Source of the DNA: Rhodoplanes tepidamans
Lineage (GTDB): Bacteria > Pseudomonadota > Alphaproteobacteria > Rhizobiales > Xanthobacteraceae
Assembly (NCBI RefSeq): GCF_030813915.1
Contig: NZ_JAUSUJ010000005.1
Span: 124,001-188,000 of the forward strand
Length of the DNA stretch: 64,000 nt
Direction: 5' to 3'
In this document: positions 44,492-47,298 of the stretch, piece by piece
Numbering within the stretch: the stretch's first letter is position 1
Layout: each line of letters begins with the position of its first letter
Position numbers and translations under genes: made by a program
The notes under the pieces: model-generated
What the model was told of the DNA's origin: nothing
Seen by the model: the letters and a program-made list of their open reading frames with translations, nothing else
Databases searched by the model: none

Positions 44492-45058
44492 TCAGCCCGA
44501 GGCGGCCCCGGACGACGCCGCCCCGCCGCGCGGCGCCGCCGCGCCGAGCGACCGCATGAACATCTGCATGCCGTAGTGGAAGGCGACGAAGGCGCCGAGC
44601 TCCATCACCTGCGCCTCGGTGTAGTGGCTCTTCAGCTCGTCGTAGAAGGCCGCGTCGATCTTGCTGGGGTCGAGGAACATCTGGTCGGCGTAGCGCAGCG
44701 CGCACTTCTCGGCCGGCGTGAACAGATCGGACTCCTCGTAATCGCCGCAGCCCGCCTCGATGCGGGCTTCGTCCAGTCCCATCGCCTTCGCCTTCTCGGA
44801 ACGCAGCGCCGCGAAGTAGCGGTCTCCGGCGAAGCGCGCCAGCAGGATGCGGACGACCTCCTTGAGCCGATGATCGACATTGCCCTCCGCATGGCTGTGG
44901 ATCAGGGCCCGCATCACCGGCACGGCGTGGTCGGGCGAGCGGGCGAGGAGGCGCGGAAACAGATCGTCGGGCACCCCGAGCGCCTCGCCCTCGGCGACGA
45001 GCCGGGCGAGCTCCGGATCCGTGATCGCCGCGCGCGGCAGCGGTGCGATGCGGGTCAT
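44492..45058 (-). CDS. AhpD/carboxymuconolactone-decarboxylase-family protein lacking the redox motif
   Basis: 188 residues, all-alpha CMD fold. It aligns along its length with the upstream Sec candidate: HRLKEVVRILLARFAGDRYF here versus HPLKEVIRVQLSRMASCSYU there, and MELGAFVAFHYGMQMFMRSL versus VELGAFVGFNLGYHTFFGSL. The two redox positions are Asp and Phe here, so it cannot use a CxxC-type centre. Its ATG overlaps the upstream TGA stop (ATGA), implying coupled translation and perhaps a heteromeric complex. The C-terminus is Ala/Gly-rich. It probably gives an oligomerising or regulatory partner; this is inference. Confidence 0.82.
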   Translation of the reverse strand: MTRIAPLPRAAITDPELARLVAEGEALGVPDDLFPRLLARSPDHAVPVMRALIHSHAEGNVDHRLKEVVRILLARFAGDRYFAALRSEKAKAMGLDEARIEAGCGDYEESDLFTPAEKCALRYADQMFLDPSKIDAAFYDELKSHYTEAQVMELGAFVAFHYGMQMFMRSLGAAAPRGGAASSGAASG

Positions 45059-45681
45059 TCGGCGGCCTCCTCGTCGGACGCGAGCGAGCCGGGCGCCGCG
45101 CCGTAGATCCGCTCCGACTCCTCCTGCGAGACGAGCCGGCCGTCGGGCGCGAACATCGGGTAGAACTTCAACGACCCGAAGAAGGTGTGGTAGCCGAGAT
45201 TGAAGCCGACGAAGGCCCCGAGCTCGACGATATCGTCGTCGTCGTAGTGTCGCCGGAGCTCGGCGAACATCGCGTCGTCGACGGCCTCCGGATCGGTCGC
45301 CATCAGCTCGCTGTAGCGCAGCGCCGCCTTCTCGGCCGCGGAGAACCGCGCACTGCTCGCGTAGGCGTCGATGCCCTCGTCGAGCAGCTCCTCGGTCAGT
45401 CCCTGTCGCTTCGCCGAAGCAGACCGGACGTTCCCTCAATAGCTGCAGGAGGCCATGCGGGAGAGCTGGACCCGGATCACCTCCTTGAGGGGGTGCGGGA
45501 TCCGCCCCTTGTTGAACAGCGAGTCCCACGCCACGAACATCGCCTCGGCGAGATCGATGTTGTGACCCATCACGGCGTGGAAGCCGGGATCGGGAGCGCG
45601 GTGCACCAGGCACTTCTCGATATAGGGCCGGAGCTTGGTCCGGCGGAGCACCTCGATGTCGAGCAGGGTGACATGGGCCAT
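45055..45681 (-). CDS. Candidate selenoprotein: AhpD/CMD-family protein with C-x-x-U motif (in-frame TGA)
   Basis: Read through the TGA at 45436-45438 as selenocysteine, this is one 208-residue protein. It starts at an ATG preceded by AAGGAGGTCG. The N-terminal half ends RVQLSRMASCSY; the C-terminal half continues GNVRSASAKRQGLTEELLDE... with no further stop and good similarity to the downstream paralogue over both halves. U82 sits three residues after Cys79, exactly where AhpD-family peroxidases carry the second cysteine of CxxC. A SECIS-like hairpin follows (45401-45428). The first half alone (81 residues) lacks most of the fold. Known AhpD acts as a disulfide reductase/peroxidase, and Sec-containing AhpD-like proteins have been reported from metagenomes. 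An ordinary nonsense mutation is the alternative, less likely given codon position and hairpin. Confidence 0.8.
45401..45428 (-). promoter_or_regulatory. SECIS-like hairpin directly after the in-frame TGA
   Basis: On the mRNA: UCC, G, GUC, a bulged U (45421), GCUUC, apical loop GGC (45413-45415), GAAGC, GAC, A, GGG. This gives 11 paired positions around one G-A mismatch and a single bulged U. The first loop base is G at nucleotide 21 after the UGA, inside the 16-37 window of bacterial SECIS elements, which require G in the first two loop positions. A bulged U below the upper stem also occurs in the E. coli fdhF element. Confidence 0.72.
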
Positions 45682-45709: not shown

Positions 45710-46039
45710 TCAGGCGTGCGTTTCCACCAGCTTCTTGAGCACCTGTCGGCGGTCCACCCCGGTGCGGGTGGCGACGAGGGTGCCATCCTTGAAGAACATC
45801 AGGGTCGGCGCGGCGTGCACCCCGAGACGCTCGGCGAGCGCCGGATTCTCCTCGATCTGCACGGTGCCGATCCGCACCCCGGAGGGGATCTCCGTCGCCA
45901 GCTGCTGCAGAAGGCGGCCGAGCTGGCGACACGGGGCGCAGCCTTCGCTCCAGAAATCGACGAGGGTGAGGCCGGACCGGCCGAGCACCTCGACCTCGAA
46001 GGTCCGCTCCGTGAAGACCGCGAAGCCCGTTTCGTTCAT
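45710..46039 (-). CDS. Thioredoxin-family protein
   Basis: 109 residues with a thioredoxin fold. The active site is VDFWSEGCAPCRQL (Cys34-Ala-Pro-Cys37; canonical thioredoxin has WCGPC, so the flanks are unusual). The cis-Pro loop is HAAPTLMFFKDG. There is no signal peptide, so it is cytosolic. The stop is 28 bp from the start of the AhpD-like Sec candidate on the same strand, making it first in a three-gene redox operon. It may serve as the electron donor to the AhpD-like protein; that is inference. Confidence 0.88.
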   Translation of the reverse strand: MNETGFAVFTERTFEVEVLGRSGLTLVDFWSEGCAPCRQLGRLLQQLATEIPSGVRIGTVQIEENPALAERLGVHAAPTLMFFKDGTLVATRTGVDRRQVLKKLVETHA

Positions 46040-46230
46040 CGAGATGCCCTCCGGGACCCGACACAGTGTCGCATCCGTAGCCTGCGGCACGCAACCCGGT
46101 TCGCCTTCGTACGGCGGACCTCCGCCGCGACGGGAACGTGGTGTTGACAGCGGCGCCGGTAAAATCTCAAGCTGGGCATACAAAGCAGAACAACGTCCGC
46201 GCAATGGCGGGCGATCGGGAGGAGACAGAC

Positions 46231-47298
46231 ATGCATCGTACCGTCACGGCCGCGCTCGCGGCCGGTCTCGCCGTGCTGGCCGCGACGCCGGCCGCGTCCC
46301 AGGAGACGTTCCGGCTGCGCATCGCCTCGGGCCATCCGCCGGTGCAGACCTACGTCAACCTGATCAGCACCTTCTTCGTCCCCGAGGTGACCAAGCGGGT
46401 CGCCGAGCGGACCAAGCACAAGGTGCAGTTCGTCGAGGGCTACGGCGGCTCGATGGTGAAGGTGGCCGACACGCTCGAGGGCGTGCAGTCCGGCATCATC
46501 GACATCGGCGGCTACTGCTTCTGCTTCGAGCCCTCCAACCTGCCCCTGCACGCCTTCCAGGTGATGCTGCCGTTCGGCACCATGAGCCCGGTGGCGAGCG
46601 TCAAGCTCGCCCGGGAGGTCTACGACCAGGTGCCCTACCTGTCGAAGGTCCTCGAGGACAAGTACAAGCAGAAGCTGCTCGGCCTGATCGCCGACAACGG
46701 CTACAACCTCGGCACTACGTTCCCGTGGAAGACGGTCGCCGACATCAAGGGCCAGAAGATCGCCGGTGCCGGCCTGAACCTGAAGTGGCTGGAATACGCC
46801 GGCGCGACGCCGGTGCAGTCGTCGCTGCCGGAGGCCTACACGGCGATGCAGACCGGCGTCTACAACGGCTGGATCATGTTCCCGTCGGCATGGCTGCAGT
46901 TCAAGCTCTACGAGATCGGCAAGCACTATGCCGAGACCGGCTTCGGCGCCATCACCTGGCACGGCCTCACCATCAACACGGCGAGCTTCGCGAAGCTGCC
47001 CAAGGAGGTCCAGGACATCCTGGTCGAGGTCGGCCGCGAGTACGAGGCGAGGACCGGCACCGTCAACGAGGAGAACTATCCCAAGCAGCTCGAGGAGCTG
47101 CGCAAGGTCGGCGTCGACGTCCGCAAGGTTCCGGACGCGGTGCGCGAGGAGTGGGCGCGGTCGCTCGCCGAATGGCCGAAGCAGAAGGCCAAGGAGCTCG
47201 ACGCCCAGGGCCTGCCGGCCACTCAGGTGCTGGAGCTGACGCTCGCCGCAGCCGAGAAGCACGGCCACAAGTGGCCGGTGCGCTACGTCGTGAAGTGA
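46231..47298 (+). CDS. TRAP transporter substrate-binding protein (DctP family)
   Basis: 355 residues. The signal peptide (AALAAGLAVLAATPAASQ) is followed by RLRIASGHPPVQTY. The family's conserved block (WKTVADIKGQKIAGAGLNLK) and NTASFAKLPKEVQDIL are clear. It is periplasmic and binds an organic acid, passing it to the DctQM membrane proteins encoded next. It diverges from the redox operon across a 191-bp gap. The start at 46231 follows GGGAGGAG. A downstream UbiD decarboxylase suggests an aromatic or other unsaturated carboxylate ligand (inference). Confidence 0.9.
   Translation: MHRTVTAALAAGLAVLAATPAASQETFRLRIASGHPPVQTYVNLISTFFVPEVTKRVAERTKHKVQFVEGYGGSMVKVADTLEGVQSGIIDIGGYCFCFEPSNLPLHAFQVMLPFGTMSPVASVKLAREVYDQVPYLSKVLEDKYKQKLLGLIADNGYNLGTTFPWKTVADIKGQKIAGAGLNLKWLEYAGATPVQSSLPEAYTAMQTGVYNGWIMFPSAWLQFKLYEIGKHYAETGFGAITWHGLTINTASFAKLPKEVQDILVEVGREYEARTGTVNEENYPKQLEELRKVGVDVRKVPDAVREEWARSLAEWPKQKAKELDAQGLPATQVLELTLAAAEKHGHKWPVRYVVK

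Follow-up and report, generated by a model that had tools for sequence, protein, structure and literature searches.

A predicted selenoprotein gene of the CMD/AhpD-like family in Rhodoplanes tepidamans, with a conserved in-frame TGA and neighbouring thioredoxin and cysteine-less CMD genes

The cmdU locus and the predicted active site of its product

The window analysed here, a stretch of 64,000 nucleotides from Rhodoplanes tepidamans, carries on its minus strand a gene, cmdU, whose reading frame is crossed by a TGA. Starting with an ATG at 45681, the frame runs through 81 open codons to this TGA and then through 126 further open codons to its natural stop, another TGA at 45055-45057, for a product of 208 residues. 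All of this agrees with the coordinates and codon counts of an earlier note on the same DNA. The genes and features of the locus are as follows:

45710-46039, minus strand: thioredoxin of 109 aa with a CAPC motif (Pfam Thioredoxin, 70.1 bits), 28 nt upstream of cmdU
45058-45681, minus strand: cmdU, predicted CMD/AhpD-like selenoprotein gene of 208 codons, with a Pfam CMD match and conserved in 20 sequences
45436-45438, minus strand: in-frame TGA, codon 82 of cmdU, conserved in homologues and predicted to be read as selenocysteine
45399-45429, minus strand: predicted bacterial SECIS hairpin with a GUCC...GGAC lower stem and a GCUUC-GGC-GAAGC core, with one bulge
44492-45058, minus strand: CMD2, a Cys-less CMD paralogue joined to cmdU by an ATGA overlap, with a homologue downstream of cmdU in relatives

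Routine annotation of such a gene would yield two fragments or a pseudogene call. The match to Pfam CMD (PF02627) nevertheless spans the TGA and scores 30.7 bits against a cut-off of 23, which places the product in the CMD family. No NCBIfam model reached its cut-off (NF053654, 66.9 bits against 310; NF041047, 15.6 against 110; TIGR01926, 37.1 against 81.8). The best-scoring of these curated models, NF053654, describes the GroundWater_YciW (seleno)protein, but at 66.9 bits cmdU is not a member of that family.

We compared the predicted active site with that of PA0269 from Pseudomonas aeruginosa. The TGA falls in the column of the second Cys of the CxxC motif of PA0269 (PDB 2ijc, E = 1e-11; 2o4d, 1.5e-11), and the phmmer alignment is gap-free through the motif, in line with the earlier note's placement of the TGA at the catalytic second cysteine (C79-x-x-U82). 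According to the account of its proton relay in PMC3141380, PA0269 uses Glu36, Cys48, Tyr50, Cys51 and His55, and that account gives the relay His as invariant among the structures compared. These five residues fall on E67, C79, Y81, U82 and R86 of cmdU, whose motif accordingly reads E67...C79-S-Y-U82...R86. The two proteins thus share Glu, Cys, Tyr and the second redox residue at identical spacing, and differ in that Sec would replace the second Cys and Arg replaces the relay His in cmdU. Arg86 stands in place of His in every listed Sec sequence that covers the position; Cys homologues in the host and its relatives (L061, L075, L098 and L099), which read C-E-F-C-GNQRS, have Arg as well. The AhpD-type relay is built from a Glu, a CxxC or CxxU motif and a His; cmdU has Glu67, C79, Y81 and U82 and lacks the His. 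Because the relay His is replaced by Arg86, we refer to the product as AhpD-like and not as AhpD, and the Arg may alter the chemistry. Among solved structures, the debrominase Bmp8 is a relative of the same fold (PDB 6ohi, E = 2.4e-8).

The earlier note had further held that both halves of cmdU align with the adjacent paralogue. This stands, with 38-39% identity across both halves, but the paralogue is itself not a CxxC protein, since in CMD2 and its homologues the C79 column holds Asp and the U82 column Phe or, in some, Ser. They retain the relay Glu and Arg, and all but one retain the Tyr. CMD2 gave no Pfam match at E <= 0.001.

Conservation of the TGA, decoding machinery and hairpin

A scan of 84,980 species genomes with six search patterns, one of them the Cys form of the motif, returned 20 cmdU loci, one of which (L031) ends before the TGA site. 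All 19 loci that cover the site, chosen by similarity, carry TGA at the homologous codon; no close Cys homologue of cmdU turned up in these genomes with the Cys-form pattern among the queries. Within one alphaproteobacterial family, cmdU was found in 18 of 24 genomes, each Sec-type copy having one internal TGA. Six of these carriers are genomes already among the loci, as identical selA places show, which leaves 12 new genomes. The same codon being TGA in 19/19 loci and 18/18 family carriers is far beyond chance. When rows were chosen by similarity alone, those covering the site at 59% identity or more made up 31 distinct stretches, and all 31 had a stop there; in rows of 42% identity or less, the columns of positions 79 and 82 held Cys or Asp or, in the case of L043, another stop. 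A separate nucleotide set of 31 sequences was gathered by a pattern demanding a stop and is informative only on the identity of the stop and on the hairpin; the stop is TGA in every member, and likewise in L089, which was too short for this set. The alignment of homologues that the earlier note called for thus gave TGA at codon 82 in close homologues and Cys in distant relatives, both in the same genome and in others.

Coding constraint persists beyond the TGA. Between the window and five relatives, dN/dS was 0.13-0.22 before the TGA and 0.13-0.35 after it, higher after it in four of the five comparisons, and invariant columns reach down to P197. Together with the conserved codon, this argues for the earlier note's view that the TGA is not a random nonsense mutation.

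The host was the only carrier of the close Sec family seen among 398 genomes of the phylum, four others joined the host among 385 genomes of the class, and cmdU was present in one of six genomes of the host genus. Several side observations were made during these comparisons. One genome (L067, L070 and L074; G487:C5:88895-90784) has two cmdU copies flanking a single CMD2, both with the TGA. A different AhpD-like gene (L043:1636, G139) has a TGA in the same column (CPF-TGA-IDINS) followed by a hairpin, in a genome with selA; judged by these features, it looks like an independent CxxU selenoprotein gene. Two MAG records titled Bordetella parapertussis (L022 and L023) contain cmdU and CMD2, with selA in their genomes; their label is doubtful because the tree places both among other betaproteobacteria.

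The earlier note had proposed a search for selA, selB, selC and selD, and all four were found in the host genome, every one over its cut-off (selB, 412.7 bits; selA, 588.2; tRNA-Sec, 81.8; selD, 431.1). They lie on one contig (C18), away from cmdU and its window, which belong to another (C5). ARAGORN called a host tRNA-Sec with a TCA anticodon. The tRNA-Sec model also passed its cut-off in 5/14 control genomes and gave a second, marginal match in the host (G000:C28:78600-78685(-), L011; 48 bits against a cut-off of 47), which may represent a tRNA whose variable arm is long. We therefore put weight on the ARAGORN call, the 81.8 bits and the place beside selB. The host tRNA-Sec gene (L117:4495-4590(-)) lies within the 3' end of the selB frame (L117:4477-7419(-)), where gene calls in the GC-rich sel region were made by codon-position GC, and a nested selBC arrangement like the host's is reported for Alphaproteobacteria in PMC8124441. 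Beside selA on the same contig are the host formate dehydrogenase genes (L117:10076-14944(-)), in which FdhA has an in-frame TGA (QARV-TGA-HGP) and is a second selenoprotein of the host.

The presence of selA tracks that of cmdU. It was over the cut-off in 20/20 collection genomes with cmdU, L031 included, and in 18/18 cmdU carriers of the alphaproteobacterial family versus 2/6 non-carriers, which amounts to 33/33 distinct genomes with cmdU (20 + 12 + the host). In the host genus, selA passed in five of six genomes, the sixth being 58% complete, though cmdU occurs in only one; selA thus appears required rather than sufficient.

The hairpin downstream of the TGA has the properties of a bacterial SECIS element. 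As listed in section 5 of PMC13188914, the constraints on such elements are a loop of 3-9 nt with a G in its first two places, a stem of 4-16 bp, a distance of 16-37 nt from the TGA and an MFE of at most -7.5. The cmdU hairpin satisfies all four: its apical loop is the 3-nt GGC, starting 20 nt after the TGA, the consensus apical stem has 7 pairs, and the 31-nt hairpin of the window folds with an MFE of -13.4 kcal/mol. Across the 31 sequences, 98.6% of the cells in this stem are paired. The outermost consensus pair is C-A in the window and is unformed there; the window pairs with a bulge instead. Among 20 sequences, codons 88-91 (GCT TCG GCG AAG) show zero synonymous differences in 190 pairs each, a comparison made without a Cys-homologue control, and the lowest synonymous variation of all 188 nine-codon windows begins at codon 85. 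In the wider 31-sequence set, L084 has ACT at codon 88. Stability against shuffled sequences is unexceptional (z -1.3; 18/200 shuffles fold as well), and covariation is weak, with one pair, 3 cells and 50/500 shuffles reaching the score. Because of this weak covariation, the case for a SECIS element is built on the machinery, the published constraints and the frozen synonymous sites. The most divergent cmdU with its hairpin was L084, in the genome region of L120 (G750:C45:260000-272000), where 0.2 kb separates cmdU from a divergent selA and the contig also has a tRNA-Sec about 3.6 kb further along.

Thioredoxin, CMD2, a seleno-peroxiredoxin and linkage to sel genes

The gap of 28 nt between the thioredoxin gene and cmdU contains a GGAGG-type ribosome site. 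In a neighbour scan with low-complexity frames filtered, a CMD2 homologue was found downstream of cmdU in 19/19 loci; the rows of two queries, ORF49273 and DctQ, were left out because these derived from wrong or shadow frames. Thioredoxin lies upstream of cmdU in the window and in eight of the 19 loci (L012 and L024-L030), and was not found there in the other 11. On the far side of the thioredoxin gene, and divergent from it, the window has a gene for DctP, a TRAP substrate-binding protein (46138-47298(+)); in L024-L027 a DctP gene stands upstream of thioredoxin on the same strand (about 23-28% identity), possibly by chance.

In the tree, the cmdU and CMD2 sequences fall into distinct groups (99/97, recovered in 100% of bootstrap trees). 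The CMD2 of the window groups with alphaproteobacterial sequences (96/89) and its cmdU does so loosely (80/66); the two Cys rows sit on very long branches, which makes their placement unsure. The best matches are betaproteobacterial (77%). Transfer from Betaproteobacteria was considered, but we make no such claim, given how the tree groups the window genes.

A further gene with an in-frame TGA occurs directly after cmdU and CMD2 in three betaproteobacterial loci, where it reads RGHW-TGA-PYC (UxxC):

L012:6283-6756, plus strand: AhpC-TSA-like UxxC gene with an in-frame TGA
L020:6238-6708, plus strand: AhpC-TSA-like UxxC gene with an in-frame TGA
L030:6276-6749, plus strand: AhpC-TSA-like UxxC gene with an in-frame TGA

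The L012 product matches AhpC-TSA with 72 bits, and no NCBIfam model reached its cut-off for the gene of L012 or L020. In all three loci the UxxC gene is followed by tRNA-Sec and then, on the other strand, by selB and selA. Both selB and selA were recognised from the ORFs in L012, and L020 and L030 have homologous ORFs in matching positions; for selA, the model places of the three genomes also fall inside these loci.

A comparable association is seen in the alphaproteobacterial family. The same peroxiredoxin-like gene, with one TGA, is present in 16/24 genomes, including 15 of the 18 with cmdU; in one of the 16 (G756), an additional TAG lies within the match. In seven of the 15, the peroxiredoxin-like gene, selA and cmdU share one contig within about 10-16 kb, and in the other eight the peroxiredoxin-like gene and cmdU are on different contigs. 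selA itself lies 10 kb or less from cmdU in nine of the 18 carriers. At E <= 1e-12, no Sec-peroxiredoxin homologue was found in the host or in the six genomes of its genus; a Sec-peroxiredoxin is therefore not a general partner of cmdU.

Proposed function and alternative readings

With the machinery present, TGA in the close homologues and a SECIS-like element downstream, the earlier note's selenocysteine reading is well supported. We consider it very nearly certain, from the sequence evidence, that TGA 82 of cmdU is read as selenocysteine, and what might pass for a disrupted gene is almost certainly the intact selenoprotein gene of a probable antioxidant enzyme. The conserved TGA, the machinery, the hairpin, the fold family, the gene order and the active-site residues, each read directly from the DNA, form the basis of the mechanism that we propose. 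The downstream hairpin would direct SelB and Sec-tRNA-Sec to insert Sec at TGA 82. In the resulting AhpD-type active site, C79 and U82 would be the redox pair (selenenylsulfide/selenolate), and E67, Y81 and R86 would occupy the proton-relay positions. The thioredoxin of the same operon would reduce the C79-U82 selenenylsulfide, and the U82 selenolate would in turn reduce an oxidised peroxiredoxin, where a Sec-peroxiredoxin is present, or a hydroperoxide directly. CMD2 may be a non-redox oligomer partner of CmdU, in a fold that forms rings or trimers.

The most plausible role is thus that of a thioredoxin-driven seleno-AhpD reducing peroxiredoxin or hydroperoxides. The explanation as a whole, a genuine selenoprotein reduced by thioredoxin and acting on peroxiredoxin or hydroperoxide with CMD2 as its partner, seems to us likely. 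Taken jointly, thioredoxin as reductant, peroxide or peroxiredoxin as substrate and the hetero-oligomer are only somewhat favoured, because thioredoxin and peroxiredoxin are not found everywhere and the Arg may alter the chemistry.

The main competitor is a real selenoprotein that works outside any peroxide system, on a small organic substrate, for instance in reductive dehalogenation or in the metabolism of aromatics or selenium. The shared fold with the debrominase Bmp8, the change of the relay His to Arg, the TRAP transporter genes nearby and the lack of a Sec-peroxiredoxin match in the host genome at the above threshold are all consistent with it. Set against these are the thioredoxin gene adjacent to cmdU in the window and eight loci, the UxxC AhpC-TSA-like gene next to it in the three betaproteobacterial loci and the UxxC gene within about 16 kb in seven alphaproteobacterial genomes, and we regard this competitor as unlikely, at perhaps a minority share of our belief. 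Much less probable is a selenium-dependent switch in which the TGA mostly terminates translation and what matters is an 81-residue product or the translational coupling of CMD2. Termination at codon 82 would indeed uncouple CMD2, since the two genes share the ATGA overlap, and in four of the five comparisons dN/dS rises somewhat beyond the TGA; yet conservation after the TGA is strong, with dN/dS at or below 0.35 and the invariant columns noted above, so that the full-length protein is under selection and any regulatory effect would be additional. A young pseudogene or misread Cys codon, conceivable in that TGA is one base from TGT and TGC and distant homologues have Cys, was rejected for the cmdU family as having hardly any chance, given the same TGA in 19 loci and 12 further genomes, the purifying selection after it, the synonymous freezing just downstream and selA in all 33 distinct genomes. 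Suppression that decodes the TGA as an amino acid other than Sec (Trp or Cys), for which we found no supporting evidence, was rejected as equally negligible in view of the host tRNA-Sec with its TCA anticodon, the Sec pathway, the SECIS-like element and the position of the residue at the catalytic Cys.

Returning to the thioredoxin-driven seleno-AhpD, one known counterpart is the Cys-based AhpC/AhpD system of Mycobacterium tuberculosis. AhpD is reduced there through lipoamide proteins, whereas the cmdU locus has a neighbouring thioredoxin as the candidate reductant. The M. tuberculosis AhpD acts as a CxxC adaptor to a peroxiredoxin, as outlined in PMC3141380. Concerning novelty, the earlier note's expectation of an undescribed system was met in part. 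Publications on CMD/AhpD-like CxxU selenoproteins go back to 2005, with the Sargasso Sea and GOS surveys (PMC1088965, PMC2398784), and those on a pair of peroxiredoxin-like and AhpD-like proteins to 2008; a 2026 review (PMC13188914) repeats the survey account. By their description, the CMD and AhpD-like 2 selenoproteins of these surveys resemble cmdU in having pfam02627 and CxxU; in the survey passages on these families (PMC1088965, PMC2398784) there is no mention of thioredoxin, a Cys-less partner, selABC linkage or the Arg-for-His change. For the arrangement of thioredoxin, Cys-less CMD, Sec-peroxiredoxin and selABC, we found no description in open-licence papers. What appears new in the cmdU locus is the operon, the Arg-for-His relay change and the Cys-less partner.

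More tentatively, and with the balance slightly against it, these genes may constitute a selenium redox module in which thioredoxin, the seleno-AhpD CmdU, the Cys-less CMD and the UxxC seleno-peroxiredoxin would form a peroxide-reducing chain with Sec in both adaptor and peroxidase. It would be a compact island with selA, selB and tRNA-Sec in some alpha- and betaproteobacteria, and the host would have a reduced form without the seleno-peroxiredoxin. For the CMD/AhpD-like selenoproteins listed by the surveys, the operon supplies candidates for both the electron donor and the electron acceptor, together with a conserved partner that lacks Cys; being defined, it makes their function directly testable with a set of three or four purified proteins. 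Its linkage to sel genes in several lineages suggests that the module may help to explain why selenocysteine has been retained there.
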